NCBI RefSeq assembly: GCF_000297025.1
Contig: NZ_CAKD01000021.1
Location: 1 to 64,000 of the forward strand
Direction: 5' to 3'
DNA length: 64,000 nt
Source: Lactobacillus pasteurii DSM 23907 = CRBIP 24.76
GTDB taxonomy: Bacteria; Bacillota; Bacilli; Lactobacillales; Lactobacillaceae
Within the stretch, counting starts at the first letter, position 1; the number at the start of each line of letters is the position of its first letter. Positions 18,152-48,128 of this stretch are shown piece after piece. The translations under genes were made by a program, and so were the position numbers. Below the pieces are notes generated by a model. It had not been told where the DNA came from. It was given only the letters and a program-made list of their open reading frames with translations, and did not search any database.

Positions 18152-19276
18152 TTAAACTATTTTTTCTCGTTCGTATTGTCTAGCTAAGTAATCATGATCT
18201 TTTACAATCTGTCTTAATTTAGCCTGGTAGCCACGAACACTAGCGGAATATTTAGCAATTCCGTCCGTATCCCCTAATCTTTTTGCTAATTCTAATTTGC
18301 GTTTGCTAGCACGTACGCCTCGTTCTAAATATCGTTGCTTTTGCAATACTTGCATCTTTTGAACGGCTTCTTTTGGGTCATATTGCGGTTGGTGGTTTTC
18401 GCTTATACCCTTGATATAAGGCCATAAAGTATGACCACAATTGACGCCCTGGGTTCCCCCTGGCTCCCCGTAACCGTGATCATAGATATTAGGATAATTA
18501 TTGTCACAACGTGGGTCATTGTGCGGTACTATGCAAACAACTTTGCCTTGAATAGGAGCACACGCCGGCCGTGCTGCAACGTGAGAACTCATAACACAAA
18601 GCACGCTGTCAAAATCTTTCATAGATTGAACACGTAAATCATTATAGACACGGCTAGTAGTGGAATTAATGACCGTTCTAGTGTAGCCTTCCAAACTCCA
18701 TGCATGACCGGCTTTATCTATCAGCGCTGACTTCATACCATTATCACGCCACTGGTAAATAATTGAGTTTAAAGCCTTGCTAGCCTTCTTTTTTCCAACT
18801 AAAACATCTAATACAGTCTTATCTATAACCTTTTGATACGTTTTAGCAACTGTATTGGAGCCATAATTAGTAGTTAGAAGCGTTTGGTTAACATAGTTAT
18901 TGATACCAACAAACATTTGACTTGCATAGCTGTTAATAATAGATCTTTCAGCTAAACTAACATCAATGTTTGGCTTTTTTAGTGCGGTTGAAAGTTCTTT
19001 ATTAAAGCCTTTTGCCACCTTCAAACCATCCGATTCAATAAGATCTATCAATTGTTGTTGCGGAATACCAATATTTTTGCTGATAAGTTTAACAACGTCT
19101 TTTGTCAATCCGCCTAACTTGCTTAATGCTTCTAAACGCCACCTTACTATTTTTTGTGGGTCATCATCAGCCTTTAATAATTGCGGTCTGGTTTGCTTGA
19201 ATACATCAACTAGAATGTAAAACAATTGTTGCTCCAATTCAGCATAGTAATCAGCAATACCGCCGGCTTTATTCAT
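18152..19276 (-). CDS. Phage minor head (minor capsid) protein
   Basis: The product is about 374 aa and resembles the Phage_min_cap2 family: helical N-terminal two thirds, then AWSLEGYTRTVINSTTSR (about 220) and a Cys/His-containing segment with VAARPACAPIQGKV, YPNIYDHGYGEPGG and NCGHTLWPYIKG. The frame is open to a GTG at 19303, but the ATG at 19276, which overlaps the portal stop by 8 nt, is more typical. No toxin domain follows the core: the C-terminus is a basic helix. Confidence 0.8.
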   Translation of the reverse strand: MNKAGGIADYYAELEQQLFYILVDVFKQTRPQLLKADDDPQKIVRWRLEALSKLGGLTKDVVKLISKNIGIPQQQLIDLIESDGLKVAKGFNKELSTALKKPNIDVSLAERSIINSYASQMFVGINNYVNQTLLTTNYGSNTVAKTYQKVIDKTVLDVLVGKKKASKALNSIIYQWRDNGMKSALIDKAGHAWSLEGYTRTVINSTTSRVYNDLRVQSMKDFDSVLCVMSSHVAARPACAPIQGKVVCIVPHNDPRCDNNYPNIYDHGYGEPGGTQGVNCGHTLWPYIKGISENHQPQYDPKEAVQKMQVLQKQRYLERGVRASKRKLELAKRLGDTDGIAKYSASVRGYQAKLRQIVKDHDYLARQYEREKIV

Positions 19277-20921
19277 CAGTTGGTTTTGGCTTATCTGGTT
19301 CACTTACATCACTTTTATCACTTTCATCATTTTTATTATCGTTGTTAGCCGTATTTTCAGCCGGGGCCGGGAACAAGCTTAATTCTTGATCAGGTGGTAA
19401 CGGTGCTTGTTCTGACTCAATCTCTTTTAGCCACTTTTCAGCATCCTCACGAGTTTTGCCATAGTTTCGCATGATAAATTCAACTTTTGGCATCACGCCG
19501 GCTGCAACGGCTGTTAAGTCCTGTGCACGTTGTGTGTCTTGGTCAATAAATACGCCGTCATTAAAATCCGGTGTAATGGTTAACTTGCTAATATCACCGC
19601 TCCAACGGGGCTTGTTATCGCTCCACAAGTCCGGAATTTGTAAGAGTTGTGCAATAGCATAAACTAATTGATCAAGCATTTTTTCAACCTGTGTTAAGTA
19701 ACTTGATCTGGTTTGATAGGTCATAGAGTTGTTTGTTACAACTTCTGTTGCGGTTTGGACTCCGCTAGAAGTGCGGGTAAAAGTTCCCTGTGACAATCCA
19801 ACTTCATTTTCAAATTCGTGTAAAAAGAAGTCCATTGCGCTAGCATATTGATCAACTCTAATATTAATTGCTAGATCTTTAAAAGCCGAACTGTCATCAT
19901 TGCGAGAATTTACCGGAATAAATACGGCATCATCAGGATCCCAATATAGTTGCTGATCCTGTGGAATCTGTCTCCCATTTACTTGTTCGGCACGTCTAAC
20001 CCAACTTCTAGGAACTGTAACACGTCTATAACCGGTTTTAACATCCCAGGCGAAACCATCATGAACTTCATTTACGTTATCAACCGTTTTCCAATAGTTG
20101 TCACATAAGCCCATTCCTAGCGGTGAAATGAAATTCTTGTTATTAGCGCCGGCATTGCGGTAAAAGGCAAAAAGCGGTTTTGTTAGGTTCTGTAAAGTGG
20201 TTTGCGGTTGCAATCCTTCAAATTCCGGAATACTATCAAGTGGAACTATTGAACCAATCGCATCATGATCATTTGACTTGTAAAGTTCGTTTGTGATCCT
20301 ATAAGGATAGTAACTAGAACCGTCTTCATTTGTAACTTTAGGCAGCCACTCATGAAATTCAACTAGCGTATAATAAACCGCCGCGTTATTTTCTACCTTT
20401 TGAATTTTACGAGTTAATGCAATCTCTTTTACCTTGCTTGTGTTAGCTTTAAGCGGATAAACACTTGTAGCATCATCCCAACTTAGTTTGATTTGGTCAT
20501 CTTCCACATAAGGGCGGATAGCTCCCGAACCTAACGCAATCCATTTTTCTAGGTTAGTTTCAAAAGAAGTATAGAAGTCTTCATTCTTGAAAGTTTCATC
20601 AAGAATTTGCTGCAATGCATCATCATCAACCTTGATAGAACATTGCTCGTTAAAAATCAAAGACGCCAAACGTTGGCTAGCCATTTTTAAAAGGTTAATA
20701 GAACTGATTTTACGTTCTTTTTTGTTGCCCATTGCATAGTAGGTAACTTTTGGCAATTCGTCTTGGTAGTAGCGTTTTGCTTTTGCTATTCTTTCGTATT
20801 CTTTAGCCGGCACCTTAATTCTAGGATCATCAGTGATAGCATTTAAACTTTTAACCTGTTGCATCCCTATCAGTTCACCACCTTTTTTAAATAAGCTTTT
20901 TATCTTGTCTAATACGGTCAT
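19269..20921 (-). CDS. Portal protein, SPP1 Gp6-like
   Basis: The product is 550 aa. It resembles SPP1 Gp6-type portals, the dodecameric ring for DNA entry and exit. N-terminal NLLKMASQRLASLIFNEQC, a central region with NNKNFISPLGMGLCDNYW, and TRTSSGVQTATEVVTNNS are typical. The C-terminal tail is acidic and Asn/Asp-rich (about 510-550). It follows terL by 15 nt and its stop overlaps the minor head start. Confidence 0.88.
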   Translation of the reverse strand: MTVLDKIKSLFKKGGELIGMQQVKSLNAITDDPRIKVPAKEYERIAKAKRYYQDELPKVTYYAMGNKKERKISSINLLKMASQRLASLIFNEQCSIKVDDDALQQILDETFKNEDFYTSFETNLEKWIALGSGAIRPYVEDDQIKLSWDDATSVYPLKANTSKVKEIALTRKIQKVENNAAVYYTLVEFHEWLPKVTNEDGSSYYPYRITNELYKSNDHDAIGSIVPLDSIPEFEGLQPQTTLQNLTKPLFAFYRNAGANNKNFISPLGMGLCDNYWKTVDNVNEVHDGFAWDVKTGYRRVTVPRSWVRRAEQVNGRQIPQDQQLYWDPDDAVFIPVNSRNDDSSAFKDLAINIRVDQYASAMDFFLHEFENEVGLSQGTFTRTSSGVQTATEVVTNNSMTYQTRSSYLTQVEKMLDQLVYAIAQLLQIPDLWSDNKPRWSGDISKLTITPDFNDGVFIDQDTQRAQDLTAVAAGVMPKVEFIMRNYGKTREDAEKWLKEIESEQAPLPPDQELSLFPAPAENTANNDNKNDESDKSDVSEPDKPKPTDE

Positions 20922-23217: not shown

Positions 23218-23982
23218 CTAATTACTGTTACGTCTAATGATACCATTTTTCCCAGCGATATAATCGTTAAACTTCTTACTCTTTTTGCCAATTTGTGAAT
23301 CAACATAAAGTAGACTACCATTCTTTTTACGTTCAACATTAATCGTGTGACCATATGTTCTTTTACCATCAGGATCACGCCAATGGAATGTAATAACGCC
23401 ACGTTCACCCGCTTTAAGTTTCGATTTAAGCTTACTATCAATATAATCGCCACGCTTAGCAACAGTTTTTGGCAATTTGATATTTTCACGATTTTTAAAT
23501 GCTAAAATTGCCGGTCTATATCCTGTATCTTTCCCTTTTGTTGGTGCTGGTTGTGCAGTTACTTTGTAGCCACGTCTTCTTAATTCATATGCAATAACTG
23601 ATCTTTGACAATTCTCGGAGTATCCTCTAGAAGTCCATTGCATTTGCAACAACTCTTGGGCTTTTTGTTTTCTTTGACTTATTAACGATTGCAATTCTCT
23701 TCTAGCACCAGGACTTGGATTACGCTTAAACTCAGCTTGCTTCTGCTCAATTTTAGTACTAAGTGCGTTAAATTCCCTATTTTTAGTATTGTATAAAGCT
23801 AGTGCTTTTCTACCACCCATGTAGTTAGGATTAGCATTGTGATTGTCTGCGGTATCAATACTCATGCCACCTTCAACTTGCTCTATTTTAGTATTTTTGT
23901 CTACTTTAATTTTATTGCCTTTTTTGCTATTACTAGGATTGTTTTTATTCTTTTTCTTTAAACTTGCACCACGACCACCCAT
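23218..23982 (-). CDS. Phage protein with C-terminal papain-fold toxin (Tox-PL-like) domain
   Basis: The product is 254 aa. It begins MGGRGAS and has a basic, low-complexity N-terminus (to about 55). A helical linker follows, then residues about 118-232 match the papain-fold polymorphic toxin pattern: Cys125 in SENCQRSVIAYELRRRGYKV, His212 in YGHTINVE and Asp228 in LLYVDSQ, an expected Cys-His-Asp triad. There is no signal peptide. It follows parB-DUF4417 with a 2-nt gap and precedes the putative immunity gene. A packaged or head-associated effector is one idea; an in-cell anti-phage or anti-host enzyme is another. Confidence 0.65.
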   Translation of the reverse strand: MGGRGASLKKKNKNNPSNSKKGNKIKVDKNTKIEQVEGGMSIDTADNHNANPNYMGGRKALALYNTKNREFNALSTKIEQKQAEFKRNPSPGARRELQSLISQRKQKAQELLQMQWTSRGYSENCQRSVIAYELRRRGYKVTAQPAPTKGKDTGYRPAILAFKNRENIKLPKTVAKRGDYIDSKLKSKLKAGERGVITFHWRDPDGKRTYGHTINVERKKNGSLLYVDSQIGKKSKKFNDYIAGKNGIIRRNSN

Positions 23983-33179: not shown

Positions 33180-33722
33180 ATGAATAAATTAGTTAAGAAG
33201 TTAGCATTAGCTAGTGCTTGTGTAGCTCTTTTATCAGGTGCAACTGGTGCACTAGTAGGAAACAATCCAGTTCATGCTGCTAAAAGTCCTAGTTGGATTA
33301 AATATACTAGGAAGTTTTACCGAGTTGAAATCAAGAAAAAAACACAGGTTTATAAAGTTATTCCAGGTAAATATGCTGCTTTAAATAGATATAAAAAAGC
33401 ATATATTTTAAATCCTGGTGACACAGTAGCAATTCGTGCACGTGGCGTTAATTGGGGTTGGACTATAAATGATTACAAGCATTGTTCTTTTAGAAGTGTT
33501 GATGATTTAAGTTGGTTCCACACAATTAATTATGATTACTACCCAGCAACTTGGTTTGATGATGATAGTGATGACAATCTTTTTTACAAGCTTACTGACA
33601 AGCAATTTAAGCCGTTAAAAAAGATATTGAATACCTATTATAAAAATCCAAAATTATTAGCCAAAAAATCCAATGCTTACTTTAAAAAGCATCATTTAAA
33701 GCCAATTGATTTTAGTAAGTAA
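33180..33722 (+). CDS. Secreted protein, probable lysogenic-conversion gene
   Basis: The product is 180 aa. It has a signal peptide (basic start, hydrophobic core LALASACVALLSGATGALVG, likely cleavage after PVHA, about residue 34). The mature part is basic and aromatic-rich (YRVEIKKKTQVYKV, GDTVAIRARGVNWGW, SDDNLFYKLT). No family recognised. It lies between the immunity genes and int, a place often used for genes expressed in the lysogen, and ends at a terminator. Confidence 0.6.
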   Translation: MNKLVKKLALASACVALLSGATGALVGNNPVHAAKSPSWIKYTRKFYRVEIKKKTQVYKVIPGKYAALNRYKKAYILNPGDTVAIRARGVNWGWTINDYKHCSFRSVDDLSWFHTINYDYYPATWFDDDSDDNLFYKLTDKQFKPLKKILNTYYKNPKLLAKKSNAYFKKHHLKPIDFSK

Positions 33723-33726
33723 ATAC

Positions 33727-33772
33727 AAAAAAGGCAGCTACTCCGTCGCCAAACATCATAGTTGCCTTTTTA
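33727..33772. terminator. Bidirectional terminator before int
   Basis: AAAAAGGCA-GCTA pairs with TAG-TTGCCTTTTT across a loop; A and T runs flank both sides. It separates the repressor/secreted-protein transcript from the integrase. Confidence 0.65.
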
Positions 33773-33834
33773 TAAAACATGTAGCCTTAACTCATATTAA
33801 GACTACTCTATTATATCAAAAATGGGGTAGAAAA

Positions 33835-35001
33835 ATGAAAGAATATTCAATGACTATTACCGCCCTACCTAGTGGTAAATTTAAGTATACACAGAAATAC
33901 CTTGACCCTTATGCTTCAAAACCTGGTTCGTTGAAATATAAGTCCGTTTCTTGCACGCTAGCCAAAAAGACAAAGCAAGCACAGGCGCACGCACGGGCCA
34001 TATTAAGTGAAAAAATAGAATTAGCTTTAGGTAACCTAGGGACTAGCAATATCACGCTTAGAACCCTTTTTAAGCACTATTGCGAGCATTACAATTTGAA
34101 TAAAGATAAGGCTGAGCTAGATCCTTCATATCAAACTTATTGGGTCTACCAAACTCATATAAAAGAGTACATAAATTCTTTGAATGACTTAGACCCAATC
34201 ATTAGCAATTTGGATGTTCCGTTTTTCAAGGAATACTTTGATAGAATGCAACAAAAATATTCTCATTCATATTGCAATATTAGGCGTGCAGCGCTCTTAC
34301 ATTTGTTCACTTACGGTATAGAGTTCGGCTACATAAAGACTAATCCAATTCTAGGATTAAGACTAAAAAGACATAGGATAGACGCCGTTAAACTCATAGA
34401 GAACAAATATCTAACTGATAAAGAATATAAAGATCTGATTGATTATGTTAAGAAGGCCGGTAAAATTAATTATGCTGATCTTTTCGAAACCATGTATTTA
34501 ACAGGTTTGCGTTTTTCTGAAATATCTGGTCTGCAAGTTAAGGACTTCAAAAAGATAGACGGTAAATATTCTCTTATCATCAATGGAATCTTAGTGAAAA
34601 AACATAAATCTAATAATCAAGCCATCAAGCGTAAAGCAACTAAGACAAACGCCGGTATGAGAGTCGTATATTTGCCACCAAAAGCAAGCGAAATTGTAAA
34701 AAAGCATTGCATTAACAAGAATGATAATCAGTTCATTTTCACTAATAAAAAAATGCCATTAGTTTATACAAGCACTAACCAGTATTTAAAACGTGCAGCC
34801 AAAAAAGCCGGTATTAATAAAAATATCACTACTCACTTTTTTAGACATACGCATATTTCAAAGTTAGCAAGTTTGGGCGTTCCCTTAGAAGACATAAAGA
34901 AGCGTGTAGGTCATGAATCAGCCAAAACCACCGAACAAATCTATTATCACATGCTATCTGAAAGTAAGGATAAGCTTGAAACGATTGTCGATAAGTTGTA
35001 A
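33835..35001 (+). CDS. int: Tyrosine-type phage integrase
   Basis: The product is 388 aa from the ATG at 33835 (GGGGTAG upstream); the longer open frame from 33706 overlaps a terminator. The arm-binding region is at about 1-60 and the SAM-like core-binding domain at about 70-170. The catalytic residues are visible: Arg226 in LTGLRFSE, His334 and Arg337 in THFFRHTHIS, His360 in VGHES and Tyr370 in QIYYHML. It lies at the host junction with the candidate att site 118 bp downstream. Confidence 0.9.
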   Translation: MKEYSMTITALPSGKFKYTQKYLDPYASKPGSLKYKSVSCTLAKKTKQAQAHARAILSEKIELALGNLGTSNITLRTLFKHYCEHYNLNKDKAELDPSYQTYWVYQTHIKEYINSLNDLDPIISNLDVPFFKEYFDRMQQKYSHSYCNIRRAALLHLFTYGIEFGYIKTNPILGLRLKRHRIDAVKLIENKYLTDKEYKDLIDYVKKAGKINYADLFETMYLTGLRFSEISGLQVKDFKKIDGKYSLIINGILVKKHKSNNQAIKRKATKTNAGMRVVYLPPKASEIVKKHCINKNDNQFIFTNKKMPLVYTSTNQYLKRAAKKAGINKNITTHFFRHTHISKLASLGVPLEDIKKRVGHESAKTTEQIYYHMLSESKDKLETIVDKL

Positions 35002-40380: not shown

Positions 40381-41271
40381 ATGAAAAATAATGATACTAA
40401 AAAAATTACCATTGATTTGATCATGATTGCCCTCGGCTGTGCTATCTATGCTCTAAGTCTAGATATGATTTCCGTACCTAACCGACTTGCAGATGGCGGT
40501 ATAAGTGGTATCACTCTAATTCTTAATCACTTCTGGGGAATCAATATGGGGTTGTCCACACTGGTTCTCAATATTCCTTTGATTATACTGGGCTACCGCT
40601 ATATGGGAAAGCTACTCCTTGCTTATACAATCTGGGGAACAGCATCCCTGTCATTTTTCTTATGGTTTTGGCGCCTGACTCCTATTATAACGCAACTAAA
40701 CCTAGACAACGACCTATTCCTTTCAGCTATTTTAGCCGGAACTCTTTCAGGCTTGGGTTTAGGGCTAGTTTTCAGGTTTAATGGTACTTCAGGTGGTACA
40801 GATATTATCGCACGAATTTTTCAAATCAAGTTCGGCATATCTTCAGGGAAAGTGCTACTAGCGTGCGATGCCATCATCTTATTCATTTCCTTAAGTTATT
40901 TAGACATCAAGCATATGATGTACACGCTATTAGCTTCATTCTTGCTGACTAGAGTACTAGACAGCGTTCAACAAGGAGCATACAGCGCTAGAGGTATTTT
41001 GATCATCTCTGACAAATACGAAAATATTGCGAAAATGATCGACATAGAACTTGAGCGCGGATTTACTTATCTCAACGCTTTAGGTGGATACAAGCAAGAT
41101 GACAAGAAAGTTATTTACCTTGTCGTTTCTCCTAGAGAAATTCCTCAAGTTAAGCATTTGATTCAAAATGAGGACCCTAATGCGTTTGTTTCAATCTTTG
41201 AGGTACATGAAGCATTAGGCGAAGGTTTTACTTATAAGCAGAAAAAGCCTCGTCTCTTCACTCGTAAATAA
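40381..41271 (+). CDS. YitT family membrane protein
   Basis: The product is 296 aa with five or six membrane helices and a C-terminal DUF2179 domain. Family features: VPNRLADGGISGITLIL, FRFNGTSGGTDIIARI and, at about 210-285, YSARGILIISDKYENI with FTYLNALGGY. Function unknown; transport is suspected. The ribosome binding site is CGGAGG. Confidence 0.88.
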   Translation: MKNNDTKKITIDLIMIALGCAIYALSLDMISVPNRLADGGISGITLILNHFWGINMGLSTLVLNIPLIILGYRYMGKLLLAYTIWGTASLSFFLWFWRLTPIITQLNLDNDLFLSAILAGTLSGLGLGLVFRFNGTSGGTDIIARIFQIKFGISSGKVLLACDAIILFISLSYLDIKHMMYTLLASFLLTRVLDSVQQGAYSARGILIISDKYENIAKMIDIELERGFTYLNALGGYKQDDKKVIYLVVSPREIPQVKHLIQNEDPNAFVSIFEVHEALGEGFTYKQKKPRLFTRK

Positions 41272-41355: not shown

Positions 41356-41505
41356 TTAAATGATATGAAAGATATATTTAGCACAAAGCCAAATAACCAG
41401 AATAGGCATCCCAAATTCTAAAACTAGCCATAAGATAATTAATGAAATTACCCCTAGCCAATCTTTGAACTTGAACCAAAAATAGAACTTGTCCCAATCA
41501 TCCAA
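41356..41505 (-). CDS. Small island membrane protein
   Basis: A 49-aa frame from a TTG at 41505 (GGTGA 5 nt upstream; a GTG at 41514 is an alternative). It begins (M)DDWDKFYFWFKFKDW and has one long membrane helix (LGVISLIILWLVLEFGMPIL). Two other small membrane proteins occur in the island. Function unknown. Confidence 0.4.
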   Translation of the reverse strand: MDDWDKFYFWFKFKDWLGVISLIILWLVLEFGMPILVIWLCAKYIFHII

Positions 41506-41516
41506 TAATTTCACCA

Positions 41517-41548
41517 AACAAAAAACGATTAACTTTTGTTAATCGTTT
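41517..41548 (-). terminator. Recurrent island hairpin, copy 1
   Basis: On the minus strand AAACGATTAAC and GTTAATCGTTT form a perfect 11-bp stem with an AAAA loop and trailing T residues. Related hairpins lie at 44555, 45649 and 46337. Confidence 0.7.
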
Positions 41549-41609
41549 AAATAAATTGTATAAATGTGCTGAAATCGGTAAAAAACTCACTGTAGTAGTC
41601 TTTAACCTC

Positions 41610-41762
41610 TTACGATTCATCGTTGTGTGTTCTTTTATACTCATCTAATTCTCTTCTATGCTTTTTTCGTAAACGTATTTCTTCTGTATAGTTTCTATTT
41701 TTATATGATTCAGAATCTATCCGTGCACGATAGAACTTTTCCCATTCTTCTTCAGTCATCAT
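41610..41762 (-). CDS. Small charged island protein
   Basis: A 50-aa frame (GAGG 8 nt before the first of two ATGs). The product is very charged: MMTEEEWEKFYRAR, then RLRKKHRRELDEYKR. No family recognised. It is the last of three small genes behind the MuF toxin remnant. Confidence 0.4.
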   Translation of the reverse strand: MMTEEEWEKFYRARIDSESYKNRNYTEEIRLRKKHRRELDEYKRTHNDES

Positions 41763-41801
41763 ACGTCTCGCCTCTATTGACTTGCTTACCTACAAACGGA
41801 C

Positions 41802-42017
41802 TCAATTTAACCATTGTCTACCTGATCTTGAACTCGATCGTATAAATTCATCAGCATAATCTTGCTTTCCATCTTGTGCTAATTCAACTTCTTTATCAAG
41901 AATTCTATCCAATAATTCGAAAGCTTCGTCTTCGGTATAAGTTCGGTTAATATCAAAATCAGACTCAATAATATTCAACAATTTGATATCAAGATTGGTT
42001 AATTTTAGCTTAATCAT
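41802..42017 (-). CDS. Small acidic island protein, possible immunity protein
   Basis: The product is 71 aa, acidic and helical (NLDIKLLNIIESDFDINRTY, EAFELLDRILDKEVEL). The start overlaps the upstream gene (TAATG), so the two are coupled. Position behind a toxin-like fragment suggests an immunity role; this is inference. Confidence 0.4.
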   Translation of the reverse strand: MIKLKLTNLDIKLLNIIESDFDINRTYTEDEAFELLDRILDKEVELAQDGKQDYADEFIRSSSRSGRQWLN

Positions 42018-42265
42018 TAATACACTTCAATATCTATAAAAGGTAGTAGCTCAACTAGTGATTTTCCATCAAAAAGCGGATCATTTAACATATCATCCTT
42101 ATTTGTGTATTCCCTGCTAGTTTTACCAAACCATAATAGGTAATTCACATGATTTTGATCAGCATCTAAAATCTCAAAGCCACACGCCTTATCTTTATAT
42201 TCAAAACTATAATCCAAGCTCCAATCATTTAAAGAAGCCTTTAAATCCTTAATTGTCATGATCAT
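42017..42265 (-). CDS. Putative immunity protein for the MuF toxin remnant
   Basis: The product is 82 aa from the ATG at 42265 (GGGGA 6 nt upstream). Acidic, with KDKACGFEILDADQNHVNY, YLLWFGKTSREYTNKDD and a C-terminal DPLFDGKSLVELLPFIDIEV. It lies 27 nt after the toxin fragment on the same strand. Size, charge and position fit an immunity protein; no named family. Confidence 0.45.
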   Translation of the reverse strand: MIMTIKDLKASLNDWSLDYSFEYKDKACGFEILDADQNHVNYLLWFGKTSREYTNKDDMLNDPLFDGKSLVELLPFIDIEVY

Positions 42266-42292
42266 AATATATCCCCGTTCTTTTATCAAATC

Positions 42293-42758
42293 TCAGCTGA
42301 TCTTCTTTAAAAGTTTTGTTCCATCATCATTAAAAATAAATTCGTGAACATGCTCTATATTTTTACCAAAGGAATGATACTTATCATTATCACCGTGACA
42401 TATCGTATGGATATCTAGTCTCATTATACCATTTTTATCATAGAATCTTCGCTTATCAACCTTGCCATTTTTATCAATGTGATCTAAAACTTCAAAAGAC
42501 TTACCTATTTTAGAAATAGTATGATCTTTAGTCACTCTATGTTGTAATCAGCGCAAGCTGTTAATCTTTTCTTCTGGAGTATCGCCTTCGGCTGCTTCAT
42601 ACATCTTCAAAAGCTTATCTAGATCATATCCCTCAACATCATCTTTATTAACTAAATCTAACTAAAGTTAAACAAAAAGGGCAAGTCATTCCACACGGAA
42701 TCCATGCCCATTCTGCTGGATATCTTATTCCATTTTTTAAAGTCGTATCTGCAGCTAC
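42293..42758 (-). pseudogene. Decayed MuF-type minor head protein with C-terminal toxin-like domain
   Basis: Three pieces of one protein are visible. First, at about 42755-42665, a MuF-like segment: RYPAEWAWIPCGMTCPFC. Second, at about 42660-42560, VEGYDLDKLLKMYEAAEGD, a linker typical of these proteins. Third, after a stop, at 42535-42293, a domain with KRRFYDKNGIMRLDIH, CHGDNDKYHSFGKN and HVHEF, resembling His-rich polymorphic toxin ends. A stop, a frame change and a missing internal segment show it is dead. The third piece could still be translated from 42535. Confidence 0.6.
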
Positions 42759-42838
42759 CCTTATTGCCAATCTTTCCAATTGCATCTTGAATAGATTGAA
42801 TAACTTTTCTTAATCCTGTACCAGCTTTATCAGCTTCT

Positions 42839-43337
42839 CAATTTGTTAACGTATGAGTTCTTTATCTCATGCTTCAATATGTTTCCATATTGTTCAGACT
42901 ATCTTTTAATCCAGATAGGATTACTTGCCTTCGTGGAAATTTTTGTATGAAAAAAGACATGCTTACACATGTCTTCATTTTTAGCTTACTTTTTCTAGTC
43001 GTTACACCTTCTTAGCGTTTCCACTAAGCTTGGCGCGGGATTAGCATATTATAAAAAATTTATAATAACAATAAAAATATAAATAATTGCTAAAAACAAA
43101 CTAGCAATTACGAGGGTCGACACAATTTGCACAAAAAAATGATCAAAAATATAAAATGCTATGGCATATAATACAATAAATCCTAGTATAACTAGCCAAA
43201 ACTCTTTAACAAAATTAATGATCTTTTTCATGTATAACACCCCCCGATTCTTTGATTAAATTATATCATAACTTAGCCTTCCCCGAATTAACAAGTTTTA
43301 TTACCTGAAAGTTACCAATCAGGAGGCCAGCAACTCT
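42839..43337 (-). ncRNA. Group I intron
   Basis: A 499-nt insertion with the group I core. Exon end GGGCU pairs with intron GGCCU (43328-43324) as P1, giving the required U-G at the splice site. P2 is CCUGA/UCAGG. P element AAUUCGGGGAAGGC (43289-43276), Q element AAUCCCGCGCCAAGC (43042-43028), R element GUGUAACGACUAGA (43007-42994) and S element AAAGAUAGUCUG (42906-42895) are in order. P4 pairs CGGGG with UCCCG and P7 pairs GACUA with UAGUC. AAGACATG/CATGTCTT is a P8 candidate. The intron ends in G. A small frame lies in the loop between P and Q. Confidence 0.85.
43049..43231 (-). CDS. Intron-encoded small membrane protein
   Basis: A 60-aa frame starting MKKIINFVKEFWLVILG (ATG at 43231, GGGGGGTG upstream). 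It has two membrane helices (WLVILGFIVLYAIAFYIF and LVIASLFLAIIYIFIVI). It lies in the loop of the group I intron between the P and Q elements, where homing endonucleases are usually found, but shows no endonuclease motif. Confidence 0.5.
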   Translation of the reverse strand: MKKIINFVKEFWLVILGFIVLYAIAFYIFDHFFVQIVSTLVIASLFLAIIYIFIVIINFL

Positions 43338-43499
43338 AGCCCGTTGTTACTAAGAATTCCCATTGCTGAAGAGGTTGATGCAAGTGAAATATTCGCTTGA
43401 TGGGCTATGGAGGATACATAGCTCATCTCCACGACTAAATCTTGGAATCCAGTTGAAGTCATATCGGCTACATAAGCAAGCTGATTTTTGACCTGCATC

Positions 43500-43946
43500 A
43501 AACAAATAAGGATCACTTTTACGGATTGATTCAATTTGTGAATCCAATCCTGACAATTTACCAGATTCATCAAGCTTGATAGTGTCCATATCTAGTAAAG
43601 CCTTGAATGCCTTGGTATTTCTTACCCTTGAACTAGTCAAGGCACTATCAATGGCGCCGTTTAGCTTAACCTTGGCCAATTCTTGAGTAAGATTGTCGTG
43701 ATCTTGCTTATACTTTCCTTGCAATTCTTGCAGCTGCTGAGTTAGTTCTTCATTATCCTTGACATTCTTCTTTAACTTGGCAAAATCCTTATCTCTTTCA
43801 GCCAATTGTGATTTCAAAGCTTCATTTTCTTTGATCATTTCATCATTGCTTGACTTAGCCTTATTAATATCTTCGCCGTTGATATCCATCACAGCTTCGA
43901 TTTGGTCATCTGACAAGCCCAACTCTTTTAATTGATCTCTTTTCAT
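43500..43946 (-). pseudogene. Truncated second scaffold gene, GP20 family
   Basis: The first about 148 residues are a GP20-type scaffold: MKRDQLKELGLSDDQIEAVM, a coiled coil and a conserved IDSALTSSRVRNTKAFKALL region. The frame loses homology after KSDPYLFDAG (about 43500), where tape-measure sequence begins in another frame. A deletion that joined head and tail genes explains this. The order minor head, scaffold matches the resident prophage. Confidence 0.7.
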
Positions 43947-44042
43947 AACAAATATTTCCTTTCCTCTAACATGTTTTTACGAGTTCACCTCTCATCAAGG
44001 CACACAAAAAGAGCAGTTTTACGACTTGCTCAGGTCAAACGG

Positions 44043-44207
44043 TTAAAACAGCTTGAATATGAAATGCAAGCATGCCCACACTGCCAATACAAATGCAGAC
44101 AGCCAAGTTATTGTAACAATTGTTCCTACAACTACATAGAAAGCGTTGGAAAAGAGTAGCTTTCTTTCAAGGTTTTTAGTAAATTTTTCGACTTCATTTT
44201 TGTTCAT
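44043..44207 (-). CDS. Small island membrane protein behind the YjcQ-like gene
   Basis: A 54-aa frame starting MNKNEVEKFTKNLERKLLFS, with a GGAG site 6 nt upstream and a 14-nt overlap with the preceding gene. One membrane helix (VVVGTIVTITWLSAFVLAVW). I prefer it to an opposing plus-strand frame because of the overlap and the ribosome binding site. Function unknown. Confidence 0.55.
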   Translation of the reverse strand: MNKNEVEKFTKNLERKLLFSNAFYVVVGTIVTITWLSAFVLAVWACLHFIFKLF

Positions 44208-44538
44208 GTTTTTCTCCAAATGCTTTGTAATTTAGATAATCTTGCGCTTTGTTCATTGCTTTATCAAAGAAAATATATTCAATACCCTTGGACGTAATCG
44301 AGTAATACCAAGTAAGCTTATTGTTTTCTTTTTCAATACCAAAATCTAGCAATTTATTTTCTATCAGTGAATCTACAATATATTTGTAATATGAATCGTT
44401 TAAGTTGTACTTATTTTTTAGATAACTATCTAAATCAGAGCACAAATTTTTTTGCCCTTTATCTCTTAAATGGCAATAGGTAGTGGATAAAATGTTATAA
44501 GCTACAACAAAATAATCTTTTTCGCAAAAATCAGCCAT
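44194..44538 (-). CDS. YjcQ-like winged-helix protein
   Basis: The product is 114 aa from the ATG at 44538 (GGAGG 6 nt upstream). It resembles phage-linked YjcQ proteins: helical start (KDYFVVAYNILSTTYCHL), a winged-helix region and the conserved end WYYSITSKGIEYIFFDKAM. The first 11 codons recur, degenerate, at 45633, so the gene was once duplicated. Role unknown. Confidence 0.5.
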   Translation of the reverse strand: MADFCEKDYFVVAYNILSTTYCHLRDKGQKNLCSDLDSYLKNKYNLNDSYYKYIVDSLIENKLLDFGIEKENNKLTWYYSITSKGIEYIFFDKAMNKAQDYLNYKAFGEKHEQK

Positions 44539-44554
44539 TGTTATCCTCCGAAAC

Positions 44555-44585
44555 AAAAAAGCGATCAACTTTCGTTAATCGCTTA
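44555..44585 (-). terminator. Recurrent island hairpin, copy 2
   Basis: On the minus strand AAGCGAT and ATCGCTT arms enclose TAACGAAAGTTG and are followed by TTTTG. It ends the transcript of CPCC copy 1. Confidence 0.75.
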
Positions 44586-44602
44586 GATAACTCATACACG
44601 TC

Positions 44603-44842
44603 TTACTTATTTTTGGCTTTATCCCCAAACAAAAATCTATTAATAACCTCGCCTTTAGCATATGCTTCCTTAGCTTCTGCCAGAGTTAATTTATTTGGCC
44701 CACCATCATGATTTATTGGACCTGTGTTTTGCCAGCCACAGTTGAAACAAATATCATAGTATCTAACTTCTTTACCGCATACTGGACAATATAACCAAGT
44801 TTCACCGTCTTTTTTCCACGTCTTTTGCATATTCTCCATCAT
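44603..44842 (-). CDS. CPCC-family cysteine-rich protein, copy 1 (probable immunity)
   Basis: The product is 79 aa from the ATG at 44842 (GGAAGAG 6 nt upstream). It carries a four-cysteine zinc-ribbon pattern (YCPVCGKEV, then YDICFNCGWQNTG) and the family end GGPNKLTLAEAKEAY. These fit the Cys-rich CPCC family. It overlaps the toxin gene's 3' end by 41 nt, so the two are coupled. That arrangement suggests it neutralises that toxin. Confidence 0.65.
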   Translation of the reverse strand: MMENMQKTWKKDGETWLYCPVCGKEVRYYDICFNCGWQNTGPINHDGGPNKLTLAEAKEAYAKGEVINRFLFGDKAKNK

Positions 44843-45582
44843 AATAATCTCTTCCTTCATCAGGCTTAAACATAGTAGTTATATTTTTGGCTTCTGAGTT
44901 TCCCAAAACAAATATATTATTTTTGATATCGTATCGAACTCTTCTTTCTCCAGTGTCATATCCTAATATATCATCTGAAACGGGTTCTGCTAACAACTCT
45001 GCAGCCATTTGTTGATATTCTTCTTTTGTTATATCTCCAAATTCTGATCTATGAGTTTCATAGTGCCCATCATATGATTTCTTGGTTGGAAATTCAGCAC
45101 CAATCCACAGTTCGCGATCTTTTAACTCGCCATACTTCTTACTATCATTATACTTCAAATTCAAGAATTCAGCCAATGAAACAGGTGCTTTATCGCCTAA
45201 TACGTCAACGATTTTATGATATTCTGTACTGTCAACTGTAAGTTTCTTCCATTCTCTAAAAGTAAGCCTCTTAGGTCCATTGTCGACTTTTACAAACTTA
45301 CCTTTACCAGTTTCTGGATCTCTAGACCACCTTGTTTCAATATCTGGTAAATCCTTCATATATGGAACTGTAGTACAGCGACAATATGGATGAATCATTG
45401 GATAATTTAATCCCTCTCGCCGATCTTTGACATAAAAAATACGCTCATCCAAGTGAGCGCAAATTTCGCATGTGTGTATTTCAAGAGTAGCCAAATACTG
45501 ATATTGTTCAATCTCTGAGTCTTCATAGAAGTCAGCTGTAGCTTGTTCTGCCAGTTGCTTAAATCGAAAATTAGTAAGATGT
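44802..45582 (-). pseudogene. 5'-truncated MuF minor head protein with C-terminal RNase-like toxin domain
   Basis: The open frame follows a TGA at 45585-45583 and has no proper start. It begins QLAEQATADFYED and carries the MuF C-terminal metal-type motif (HTCEICAHLDERIF, then MIHPYCRCTT). After the linker LTFREWKKLTV and AEFLNLKYND, residues near the end (RRVRYDIKNNIFVLGNSEA, TTMFKPDEGRDYY) resemble the BECR-fold phage toxins (Barnase/EndoU/ColicinE5/RelE-like). The toxin domain itself looks intact and might be expressed from an internal TTG at 45494. Confidence 0.65.
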
Positions 45583-45588
45583 CATAAG

Positions 45589-45633
45589 TTACATACAACC
45601 AACAAAATAATCTTTTTTGCAAAAACTAGCCAT
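45589..45633 (-). pseudogene. 5' fragment of a duplicated YjcQ-like gene
   Basis: The frame ATG GCT AGT TTT TGC and its continuation to KKDYFV matches codons 1-11 of the gene at 44538, then reads into a stop. It is joined to the truncated MuF gene. This marks a recombination point where one cassette was stitched to another. Confidence 0.6.
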
Positions 45634-45648
45634 TGTTTTTTCTTCAAA

Positions 45649-45680
45649 CAAAAACTATCAACTTTCGTCAGTCGCTTGGT
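45649..45680 (-). repeat. Recurrent island hairpin, copy 3 (degenerate)
   Basis: Shares AAGCGA, GACGAAAGTTGAT and a TTTTTG end with copies 2 and 4, but the stem has drifted (GCGAC against ATAGT). It lies directly after the gene at 45658. Confidence 0.5.
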
Positions 45681-45882
45681 TAATAATTTCTATTGATTTT
45701 ATCTCATTCTCTGGGAATACAAACTCCGTTGTACTATATCCCTCTGCTTTTAACCCTATTTCATCATATTCGTAATCATCGTGGTCAAATGCAAAATCAA
45801 TATTTTTTACTCTTCCAATCCAAATCTTATTATCGCAATCAATAATCTTTACATCTCTTCCAACATATTTTTCCAACTCCAT
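45658..45882 (-). CDS. Small acidic protein, possible immunity or Sm-like fold
   Basis: The product is 74 aa with a strong GGGAGG site. It is beta-rich and acidic: LEKYVGRDVKIIDCDNKIW, RVKNIDFAFDHDDYEYDE and TEFVFPENEIKSIEII. The strand pattern resembles small beta-barrels. It follows CPCC copy 2 by 40 nt and may be a second immunity gene; no family named. Confidence 0.45.
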   Translation of the reverse strand: MELEKYVGRDVKIIDCDNKIWIGRVKNIDFAFDHDDYEYDEIGLKAEGYSTTEFVFPENEIKSIEIINQATDES

Positions 45883-45922
45883 ACTATTCCTCCCTCATCA
45901 CTAATAAAAAACAGGAGCCCCA

Positions 45923-46153
45923 TTATTCTGATAAAAACTTAAAGTTATTTATCTTTCCCGTTTCCTTGTACTGTCTCTGTGCTTCAGCAAGAGTTATGTT
46001 ATTTGGCCCGCCATCATGGTTTATTGGACCTGTGTTTTGCCAACCACACTTGTCACAGATATTATCATAACCTCTAACTTCTTTACCGCACACTGGACAA
46101 TATAACCAATTTTCACCGTCTATTTTCCATGTCTTTTGCATATCCTTCATCAT
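45923..46153 (-). CDS. CPCC-family cysteine-rich protein, copy 2 (probable immunity)
   Basis: The product is 76 aa from the ATG at 46153 (GGGAG 8 nt upstream). Same layout as copy 1: LYCPVCGKEVRGYDN, CDKCGWQNTGPINHDGGPN and ITLAEAQRQY. In the overlapping frame its 5' end encodes a toxin-like tail YDEGYAKDMENRR before a TGA, matching the end of the toxin at 44802. It was therefore once coupled to a toxin gene that is now lost. Confidence 0.65.
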   Translation of the reverse strand: MMKDMQKTWKIDGENWLYCPVCGKEVRGYDNICDKCGWQNTGPINHDGGPNNITLAEAQRQYKETGKINNFKFLSE

Positions 46154-46182
46154 ATTAAGTGCTCCCATTTCAGCTAACTATA

Positions 46183-46318
46183 TTCAATTAGCTCACGATA
46201 CTTTTCATTATCAGCATACTCCAAATTCAAGAATTCAGCCAACAAAACAAGTACTTTACTCCCTAATGTATCAATAATTTTTCAACATTCTAAGTTCATC
46301 AAATGTAAGCTTTTTTAT
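46183..46318 (-). pseudogene. MuF linker fragment upstream of CPCC copy 2
   Basis: Reading frames with stops encode KLTFDELRMLKN, then, after a frame change, LLAEFLNLEYADNEKYREL. These align to LTFREWKKLTV and LAEFLNLKYNDSKKYGEL in the longer gene. Most of the toxin domain after it is deleted. Confidence 0.6.
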
Positions 46319-46336
46319 CAAAAATTTTCTCAAACG

Positions 46337-46364
46337 AAAAACGATCAACTTTCGTTAATCGCTT
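46337..46364 (-). terminator. Recurrent island hairpin, copy 4
   Basis: On the minus strand AGCGAT and ATCGTT arms enclose TAACGAAAGTTG, followed by TTTCG. It ends the CPCC copy 3 unit. Confidence 0.6.
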
Positions 46365-46366
46365 GG

Positions 46367-46645
46367 TTAATATTCAATCTCAGTTATAGGTATTCCAAAC
46401 TCGCCATATCCTATCACTTTAACACTTTTTGGTTCGGGCCTAATTATTTTCCCAGTTTCTTTGTACTGCTTTTGTGCTTCTGCTAAAGTAATATGATTTG
46501 GCCCACCGTCAATATTAGTTTCTCCGGTATTTTGCCAATCATAGTTGAAACAGATATCGTAAGTTTTAACCAATTAGCCACACACAAGGCAATGTATATA
46601 ATCTACGCCATCAATCCATATTACTTTCTCTTCCAAGTTTGCCAT
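46367..46645 (-). pseudogene. CPCC-family gene, copy 3, broken by a stop
   Basis: The frame starts MANLEEKVIWIDGVDYIHCL (GGGGAAG upstream), reaches LVCG and stops at TAA (46576-46574). It then continues in frame as LVKTYDICFNYDWQNTG, DGGPNHITLAEAQKQYKETG and a longer end. One zinc-ligand cysteine is now Tyr. Both changes indicate loss of function. Confidence 0.65.
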
Positions 46646-46740
46646 AGTAATACTTCCCCTTTCTTCAGATTTAAAGAATGTTGATGTTTGTTTACGATCT
46701 TTTTATAACAATAGCATGAATTTTAAATACTTATTACTCT

Positions 46741-46800
46741 CAACATTATCATACTTCAAATTCAAGAATTCAGCCAATGAAACAAATGCTTTGCCCTCGT
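46741..46800 (-). pseudogene. Second MuF linker fragment
   Basis: About 20 codons encode FVSLAEFLNLKYDN, matching the linker of the MuF toxin gene and the fragment at 46183. It lies upstream of CPCC copy 3, in the same relative place. It marks the outer edge of the island. Confidence 0.5.
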
Positions 46801-46874: not shown

Positions 46875-48128
46875 CTATAGATTCTCATCATACATATCTT
46901 GCATATCAAGATCATCGGGTTCTAACTTCAAGTACTTCTTAAGAAGGTCCATTACTACTTCCTTTGAATTTGGCAATGTGTTGAAGAACAACAACATTTG
47001 CTTCAAAAATTCTGGATTCTCTTGATAGTCTGGGTATGCTAAAAGATATTCACTCTTAGCTTGCTCATTATCTTCAAGTCCCTGATATGATCTTGCCAAA
47101 TTCCAGTGAATCTGTGCTTCTTCATCGCTATCTTGAACATCCTTGAACAAATCTAGATTTTCTTGGTACTTATGTCTGCTCAACAACAAGTTAGATAGTT
47201 GCAAACGCAAATCGCTGTTGTCTGGTGCAATCTTAAGCCCCTTCTTCAATAAGTCCTCAGCTACGTCATCTTCATTCAAAACAACGGCTGCTTGAGCTCC
47301 CATTGAATATAAGGTTTCATCCAGCTCATTATAGGCCAAACCAGCTTGAGCTGATCTAAGAACTTGTTCATTATCATTCTTTTCTTGATATGCTTGAGCC
47401 AATATTGGATAAACGTTAACATAATCTGGACTTTGATCGATGACTTGGTCTAAAAACTTGATTGCTTCATCGACTTCTCCTGCTGATAATAAAATCAAGC
47501 CCGCTTGATACTTGCTATCGATATCAAGCAAATCGCTACTATGGTTGCGAATTACTTCAGCTGCTTCTTCGTACTTGCCTAATTTAGCCTTTGTTTGAAT
47601 TAGGCGTTGTTGCAAGTTAACTTCGCTAATTCTTTTTTGACGTTTTAAAAGATCTTCATAGAGCTCTTCTGCCTCTTCATACTGGCCATCCATAAAGTCA
47701 AGCTCAGCAATACCAAACTTAATAGTATCTTCTTCAGGAGCCAATTTTGAAGCTTCTAAGAGCTTAGCTCTGGCTACTTCAATTAATCCATTAGTTTGGT
47801 AATAATCCGCTTGTACTAATAAACTATCTAAATATGCTGTAGAATTTTGATCAACATTATACAAAAGAGTTAATCCATCGTCATCTTGGCCATCGTTTAA
47901 CAAGATTTCAGCCAAATAAACTTTAAATAAGTCTTCACCCGGAAACTGAGCGATTAATGCACGATATACTTCTTTAGCTAAATTCGTAAAACCATAGTCT
48001 GTTAAATTTTCGGCTAATGATGCTAGAACATCTGGATCATCATTATCTAAAGCTAGTTTCAATAATTTTTCGGCATTTGAAAACTCATGGTTTCCAATCG
48101 CATCTAATAATTGCTCAGAATATGTCAT
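46875..48128 (-). CDS. Tetratricopeptide repeat protein
   Basis: The product is 417 aa built of about eleven helical TPR units, for example AGEVDEAIKFLDQVIDQSPD and YEEAEELYEDLL. It resembles B. subtilis YpiA-type proteins, which are of unknown function and usually lie near hup. It forms a run with hup on the same strand, separated by a terminator. No catalytic domain. Confidence 0.8.
   Translation of the reverse strand: MTYSEQLLDAIGNHEFSNAEKLLKLALDNDDPDVLASLAENLTDYGFTNLAKEVYRALIAQFPGEDLFKVYLAEILLNDGQDDDGLTLLYNVDQNSTAYLDSLLVQADYYQTNGLIEVARAKLLEASKLAPEEDTIKFGIAELDFMDGQYEEAEELYEDLLKRQKRISEVNLQQRLIQTKAKLGKYEEAAEVIRNHSSDLLDIDSKYQAGLILLSAGEVDEAIKFLDQVIDQSPDYVNVYPILAQAYQEKNDNEQVLRSAQAGLAYNELDETLYSMGAQAAVVLNEDDVAEDLLKKGLKIAPDNSDLRLQLSNLLLSRHKYQENLDLFKDVQDSDEEAQIHWNLARSYQGLEDNEQAKSEYLLAYPDYQENPEFLKQMLLFFNTLPNSKEVVMDLLKKYLKLEPDDLDMQDMYDENL

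Follow-up and report, generated by a model that had tools for sequence, protein, structure and literature searches.

A prophage remnant of Lactobacillus pasteurii with a stack of deleted MuF toxin loci and candidate orphan immunity genes

Polymorphic toxins of the MuF type, as described by Jamet et al. 2017 (PMC5576092), combine a shared MuF head domain with a variable toxin end, and a small immunity-like gene comes right after; in an S. mitis phage, the MuF toxin and a small open reading frame (ORF) are homologous to a MafB toxin-immunity module. Immunity genes that outlive their toxins have been described for other delivery systems. In the type VI secretion system (T6SS) of V. cholerae, new effector-immunity modules displace old effectors while the old immunity genes stay, according to Kirchberger et al. 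2017 (PMC5361080), and gut Bacteroidales carry acquired interbacterial defence or orphan T6SS immunity genes that are protective without a toxin, according to two reports (PMC12247911, PMC10470768). Here we describe a locus in the window, that is, the whole 64,000-nucleotide stretch of Lactobacillus pasteurii DSM 23907 = CRBIP 24.76 that was analysed (contig NZ_CAKD01000021.1, positions 1 to 64,000). Phage remains of 5.6 kb lie there on the minus strand between a YitT gene (plus strand, ending at 41271) and a TPR gene (46875-48128, minus strand), and these are indeed deleted MuF toxin loci, stacked at an insertion between the two genes. A sequence-only reading had proposed a dead prophage in which MuF toxin cassettes and orphan immunity genes are stacked, and both the anatomy and the family matches agree with it.

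The locus shares features with each of these systems and departs from each of them. Compared with the MuF polymorphic toxins of PMC5576092, its cassettes are stacked, partly toxin-less and part of a remnant. The V. cholerae arrays, as described in PMC5361080, follow the same logic of sequential displacement with heterogeneous alleles; in the window, however, the carrier is a phage head protein, the toxin-less units stand upstream of a complete cassette, and phage segments have been deleted between the units. In the Bacteroidales reports (PMC12247911, PMC10470768) the threat is the T6SS of neighbours, whereas here it would presumably be phage particles. A structural relative is the E. coli O32:H37 complex in PDB entry 8EY4, which, as profile and structure matches show, shares both the toxin fold and the CPCC immunity family with the locus; by its title, the entry belongs to a contact-dependent growth inhibition (CDI) system, while the window toxin sits on a MuF head protein instead. 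The likeness to the orphan arrays of CDI and Rhs systems, suggested before any database search, is supported, and the toxin/CPCC pair turns out to be a CDI pair as well. The words "orphan" and "array" are absent from the main text of PMC5576092. In the open literature we found no report on the 8EY4 complex, none joining orphan immunity with a phage satellite, and none joining CPCC with an immunity protein and a toxin, and the literature matches listed, subscription papers being outside the scope, included no title on orphan immunity arrays for MuF toxins. Orphan immunity arrays are already known; judged from sequence and literature, their MuF, putatively phage-delivered version appears to be new.

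The remnant reads as four units, given below in transcription order, with identities at the nucleotide (nt) or amino acid (aa) level.
Unit 1, 46727-46792, minus strand: pre-toxin linker fragment A, toxin lost (83% nt to 45132-45191)
Unit 1, 46367-46645, minus strand: CPCC copy 3, a pseudogene with a C-terminal extension (one in-frame stop; 58% aa to copy 2)
Unit 1, 46339-46364, minus strand: terminator-like hairpin T1 (hairpin pattern and terminator scan)
Unit 2, 46188-46315, minus strand: pre-toxin linker fragment C, toxin body deleted (74% nt to 45122-45248)
Unit 2, 46113-46154, minus strand: terminal codons of the missing toxin, which overlap the beginning of CPCC copy 2 (three-frame translation)
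Unit 2, 45923-46168, minus strand: CPCC copy 2, open, putative orphan immunity gene (PF14206, E 1.8e-8; phrog_6332)
Unit 2, 45658-45882, minus strand: phrog_1865 gene, open, putative orphan immunity gene for Ntox50-type toxins (phrog_1865, E 3.1e-17)
Unit 2, 45638-45685, minus strand: diverged hairpin T2 (nt comparison)
Unit 2, 45589-45633, minus strand: 5' fragment (first codons) of a phrog_3675-type gene (translation; 45600-45654 is 82% nt to 44505-44559)
Unit 3, 45369-45542, minus strand: MuF (PF04233) tail without its N-terminal part (40.4 bits over positions 54-111 of 112)
Unit 3, 44802-45218, minus strand: complete C-terminal toxin domain of colicin D / 8EY4 type (match to the PDB 8EY4 toxin)
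Unit 3, 44603-44860, minus strand: CPCC copy 1, open, toxin-linked immunity gene (family profiles; overlaps the toxin end)
Unit 3, 44559-44584, minus strand: hairpin T3 (hairpin pattern and terminator scan)
Unit 3, 44194-44568, minus strand: phrog_3675 gene, cassette-flanking (PHROG match; 83% nt to the flank on contig C14 of the same genome)
Unit 3, 44043-44219, minus strand: small cassette-flanking gene, a membrane protein by look (C14 comparison)
Unit 3, 43494-43946, minus strand: phage scaffold gene, 3' truncated (PF06810, E 4.8e-44)
Unit 3, 43334-43495, minus strand: tape-measure fragment beside the scaffold remnant, in another frame (phrog_1293, E 2.7e-15)
Unit 4, 42651-42809, minus strand: possible head-protein scrap (weak: phrog_13257, E 0.022)
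Unit 4, 42293-42535, minus strand: second toxin end, Ntox24-like, head part lost (BLASTP E 6e-7 to L056:15729-17126)
Unit 4, 42017-42289, minus strand: phrog_3711 gene, candidate immunity gene by position, isoelectric point (pI) 4.5 (phrog_3711, E 8e-9)
Unit 4, 41802-42017, minus strand: small acidic gene of 71 aa (computed pI 4.5)
Unit 4, 41523-41548, minus strand: hairpin T4 (hairpin pattern and terminator scan)

Unit 3 holds the complete toxin end and its linked immunity gene. The toxin end at 45218-44802 matches chain A of 8EY4 both by profile and by structure, and profile A1, which contains CPCC copy 2, matches chain I, so that the toxin and CPCC profiles independently find two chains of one solved complex; Pfam, NCBIfam and PADLOC gave no toxin family for this end. 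Copy 1 lies directly downstream and overlaps the toxin end, and CPCC is present at 46 of 46 toxin loci in IMG/VR, our own included. The one Phage_Mu_F match of the remnant region, a partial one at 45542-45369, also belongs to this unit, which therefore has a MuF domain N-terminal to its toxin, while the other units have none or a weak one. Where four MuF tails had been counted from the sequence, we find one clear tail (45542-45369), two pre-toxin linkers (46792-46727 and 46315-46188) and one weak scrap (42809-42651).

The zinc-ribbon genes picked out in the same reading are three copies of CPCC (PF14206), two of them open and one with a stop. Copies 1 and 2 score above the family cut-off, and so does copy 3 over its open part. 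Copies 1 and 2 have four cysteines each and copy 3 has three; the latter is a pseudogene that has lost a conserved proline and one cysteine and departs from seven conserved columns. On homology, the identity of the toxin-immunity pairs is close to settled. The zinc-ribbon genes fall into the immunity family solved with a CDI toxin in 8EY4, and copy 2 and the phrog_1865 gene are open, putative orphan immunity genes. In the record of phage EJ-1 a promoter is annotated within the 3'-terminal part of the minor head (MuF) gene, ahead of the CPCC gene (L005:3676-3705), and orphans that retain the last codons of a toxin might retain an EJ-1-like promoter with them. Elsewhere in the genome, a fourth CPCC copy, likewise broken, lies on contig C8 (L059:3569-4803) next to two small genes of 85 and 234 aa, for which NCBIfam gave no match, and no phage genes were seen around it. 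Among 15 sequences compared, this copy is nearest to that of an S. suis phage (69%), and the spot is possibly a second place of orphan immunity.

The second open gene of unit 2 points to a different toxin. Its product is acidic (45882-45658, pI 4.2), and a gene of the same phrog_1865 type directly follows an Ntox50 toxin at 9 of 9 IMG/VR loci other than our own, several of which are near-identical. Pfam likewise finds Ntox50 in the gene that precedes the phrog_1865-type gene of Javan210, Javan576, OlisA2 and Javan118. There is no Ntox50 match in our own genome, nor in the eight others where a phrog_1865-type gene is clearly present next to CPCC (G305, with a weak match to this type, stayed outside the test). 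Ntox50 does occur within the genus of the window, as locus L096 shows; the 72-aa gene behind it there has no phrog_1865 match and is paired by position. A model of the phrog_1865 protein predicts an Sm-like fold, and its fold matches are to a common small barrel and uninformative on function.

Unit 4 holds the second of the two different toxin-like ends that had been noticed, and both ends stand, the family match being carried by structure and profile for the first and weaker for the second. The end at 42535-42293 resembles the Ntox24-like end of a MuF protein on C14, which itself reaches 20 bits against a cut-off of 24; it has no Pfam toxin match of its own, PF15529 (Ntox24) included. On C14, too, a phrog_3711 gene comes after the Ntox24-like MuF; BLASTP finds no similarity between it and the phrog_3711 gene of the window, though both match the PHROG profile, and a phrog_3711 query gave no match in phage records. 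The phrog_3711 gene (42289-42017), its 71-aa neighbour (42017-41802) and the phrog_1865 gene are the small acidic genes of the sequence-only reading.

The recurrent terminators claimed for the region are real, and a hairpin closes each cassette. We count six terminator-like sites against 1.9 (standard deviation, sd, 1.2) in shuffles. The hairpin pattern of T1, T3 and T4, with at most three mismatches, occurs at five sites in the 1.9 Mb genome, three of them here and two on C14; all five are at MuF remnants, and the reversed control pattern gave none. Exact matches occur in three IMG/VR contigs, namely our own, a sibling of C14 and a third in which the hairpin stands just ahead of a scaffold-like ORF (by reading). 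A chance pattern was rejected, as the family matches and the hairpin far exceed chance.

Contig C14 (L056:9428-18286) carries two more MuF cassettes. In one, a 5'-truncated MuF with a toxin end stands with an 83-aa phrog_37318 gene; in the other, a full MuF has an Ntox24-like end and is accompanied by a phrog_3711 gene, after which comes a truncated scaffold-like gene. A tyrosine recombinase lies near them, which we take to be xerS-like. The hairpin on C14 stands between the phrog_3711 gene and phrog_3675. When the window is compared with C14, the MuF tail is 83% identical over 260 bp and a second segment, which runs from the hairpin across phrog_3675 and reaches the scaffold gene, is 83% identical over 938 bp, while the toxin has no match: conserved arms flank an exchanged cassette. 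There is good support for a stack formed by one replacement after another, with deletions. We infer that the cassettes swapped through these flanks, and the units are probably from different phages, because the CPCC copies are different alleles.

Similar stacks are found in other phages and genomes. Javan576 has a MuF-Ntox50 gene, two phrog_1865-type genes and then the C-terminal part of a CPCC-type toxin with an open CPCC. The IMG/VR locus L240 combines a tape-measure-like scrap (by reading), a one-stop toxin and an open CPCC gene; after these come a MuF-type tail with a one-stop Ntox50 and an open phrog_1865-type gene. Genome G317 (L163:5493-6361) has a frameshifted CPCC-type toxin together with a CPCC that is open, and a one-stop Ntox50 lies 44 nt behind the latter. 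In another genome of the genus (L096:4343-14596) three MuF tails, 88-95% identical to each other, end in different toxins: an ADP-ribosyltransferase, an end with an HEFSHH motif (by reading; no family match) and Ntox50. A scaffold-like fragment at this locus is fused to a lysin-like end (by reading).

Beyond such stacks, CPCC genes form arrays that are free of toxin altogether. Six Streptococcus satellite phages carry two CPCC copies each; over the whole records the toxin profile has no match in five of them, and in the sixth, Javan218, it finds the last 32 positions of the toxin alone, ahead of the second CPCC. Of two further satellites with a phrog_1865-type gene, Javan543 keeps a linker piece alone, and Javan228 has no toxin match. 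Among 395 genomes of the window's order, 14 have a CPCC match (12 of them strong), as do 19 of the 197 genomes of a Streptococcus-like genus. Rows of the form ph-CPCC-CPCC-ext-CPCC-ph occur in two genomes, and arrays in genomes of genus g23 share 90-100% identity with genes of Streptococcus phages and satellites. The "ext" domain that is joined to CPCC in satellites was considered as a third MuF immunity type, which is unsupported: it was found in five satellite records only, and not behind a MuF toxin. As side observations, an orphan CPCC whose toxin is wrecked has a Cas9 gene about 300 bp away (L162:1398-5962), an "ext" and CPCC orphan pair lies near AbiEi/AbiEii and the PADLOC candidates PDC-S14 and PDC-S26 (L166:5229-7640), and in G554 and G488 (L197/L198) two CPCC domains stand head to tail in one frame of 194 residues, a fused double immunity protein.

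The state of toxin and immunity gene was tallied over 41 CPCC copies, 17 from the order search and 24 from the Streptococcus-like genus (the weak matches G277 and G305 were dropped, and the copy G540:C19:65774, with no locus of its own, was excluded). A toxin was called intact if at least 85% of its C-terminal toxin domain was free of stops, judged on that domain alone. Thirteen copies stand with an intact toxin end and 26 are open without one (six with a broken toxin, 20 with none); two have no toxin and a stop, both in our own genome; in no case was CPCC broken beside a toxin end that is intact, as expected, because an intact toxin without its antidote kills. The arrays of G307, G428, G527, G560, G554 and G488 look related, so the copies are not independent. 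The ratio of nonsynonymous to synonymous substitutions (dN/dS), pooled by the Nei-Gojobori method over all pairs including related ones, which are therefore not independent and may include swapped-in alleles, was 0.11 for the second CPCC (n=12) and 0.22 for the first CPCC with its extension (n=9) among orphans in satellites and arrays, 0.39 for orphan phrog_1865-type genes (n=9) and 0.26 for toxin-linked CPCC (n=8). Copies 1 and 2 of the window differ by a dN of 0.18 and a dS of 0.64, values that mostly reflect their phage past.

How the remnant came about and what it does may then be put as follows. Several MuF toxin loci, probably three or more, would have come from prophages and been stacked in deleted form. 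Their full layout would have been a MuF head protein with an exchangeable toxin, an immunity gene, the hairpin, phrog_3675, the small gene and the scaffold gene, with cassettes swapping at the conserved flanks, the MuF tail on one side and the hairpin-to-scaffold segment on the other. Repeated swaps and deletions would strip toxins and most phage genes while the immunity genes stay: copy 1 with its toxin, copy 3 decayed, and copy 2 and the phrog_1865 gene open without the toxins they would counter, a colicin D/8EY4-type nuclease and Ntox50. The orphan proteins, when expressed, would bind and block matching toxins carried in by phage particles, and cells keeping these genes would survive attack by toxin-armed phages. 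That the orphan immunity genes of this stacked remnant are kept and protect against phage-borne toxins is the account we lean towards, with slightly better than even confidence. The wider idea, that Lactobacillales bacteria and phage satellites keep acquired immunity arrays against toxins packaged in temperate phage heads, we put forward tentatively, as something a little short of an even prospect; with the same reserve, the remnant would be its example in Lactobacillus, and Streptococcus would show the developed form in its ph-CPCC-CPCC-ext-CPCC-ph rows, no live phage being needed. At stake are the purpose of MuF toxins and the question whether phages carry them into cells to do harm; toxin-free immunity genes in toxin-free genomes are hard to explain unless the toxin is met from outside. 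The two defined pairs, 8EY4-type toxin with CPCC and Ntox50 with phrog_1865, together with the natural orphan carriers, make the idea directly testable.

Two alternatives concern the origin and use of the cassettes themselves. The units are repeats in one orientation at 74-90% nt identity, as a local tandem duplication of one cassette with later divergence would leave them; yet copy 2 is nearer to the metagenomic P0078 (76%) than to copy 1 (73%) and groups with the former at a bootstrap of 82, a tree by which a recent local duplication of the CPCC copies was rejected. Copy 3 groups elsewhere (bootstrap 60, a weak placement), the immunity types differ between units, and we regard this already disfavoured origin as very improbable. 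The remnant could also be a bank that donates toxin-immunity cassettes to incoming phages through the MuF tail and the hairpin/scaffold flanks. The C14 comparison, with flanks 83% identical to phage genes around an unrelated toxin, and the L096 tails, so alike where the toxins differ, speak for such exchange, but the two upstream units are free of toxin and could donate immunity only, and no recombinant was seen; a role of this kind seems unlikely to us.

The more serious rival at the window locus is plain decay. The remnant would then be a prophage graveyard in which the open immunity genes are young or lucky and functionless. The wrecked scaffold, tape-measure and head genes fit this, short genes outlast others by chance, and several further observations weigh against protection. 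One of the three CPCC copies of the window and the fourth copy on C8 are broken, as plain decay would give. Copy 2 deviates at 6 of 28 conserved columns, where copy 1 deviates at 3 and linked genes, in a leave-one-out comparison, at 0-8. A promoter scan, hardly above shuffles as a whole (31 against 25.3, sd 5.1), gave no sigma-70-like site on the minus strand between T1 and copy 2. A complete CPCC-type toxin was found in no other of 75 genomes of the genus, where matches extend over the MuF part and no further than the linker, and so the threat to the host is not observed. Toxins would break before immunity genes from toxicity alone, so that the tally is by itself no proof of selection, and the dN/dS values that indicate purifying selection come from arrays of other bacteria, not from the window. 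In PMC5576092, moreover, phage delivery of MuF toxins into cells is put as a hypothesis. On the other side, the remnant retains mainly the toxin-immunity segment of its phages; such MuF segments with lost surroundings are also seen on C14, L096 and L240; and toxin-free arrays elsewhere have dN/dS values that indicate purifying selection and ride on mobile satellites. Neutral decay of all the small genes, the outcome that would have spoken against the sequence-only reading, is not what we see: one CPCC copy is broken, but two copies and the phrog_1865 gene are open. A functionless graveyard is a possibility to which we give appreciable weight, although we doubt it. Protection against phage-borne toxins would, in our judgement, be the best account of the comparative pattern, and the toxin-free arrays that ride on satellites or stand near AbiE or Cas9 genes, together with their dN/dS values, suggest that the defence idea is more plausible than the window alone would make it.

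The phage remains are an insertion, because YitT and TPR are neighbours in relatives. Among 72 genus relatives with a TPR match, the best 29 were taken with 1.5 kb flanks; YitT adjoins TPR in 18 of these 29, with a gap of at most about 170 bp in 16 and of about 0.8 and 1 kb in the other two, while one further relative has a partial YitT match and ten have none within the flank. The IMG/VR record IMGVR_UViG_2563366755_000002 (L062/L117) runs in window coordinates from base 1 to 46153, and its boundary looks wrong, because host genes lie inside it and its end falls within CPCC copy 2. A separate, complete-looking prophage occupies 1-35001 of the window, with an integrase-like gene at 33706-35001 (by reading). 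The remnant was considered as a part of it, which was rejected, as several chromosomal genes (by reading) intervene. This prophage has a Phage_min_cap2 head protein at 18152-19303 and, in the gene at 23218-23982, a papain-fold glutamine deamidase toxin domain (PF15644).

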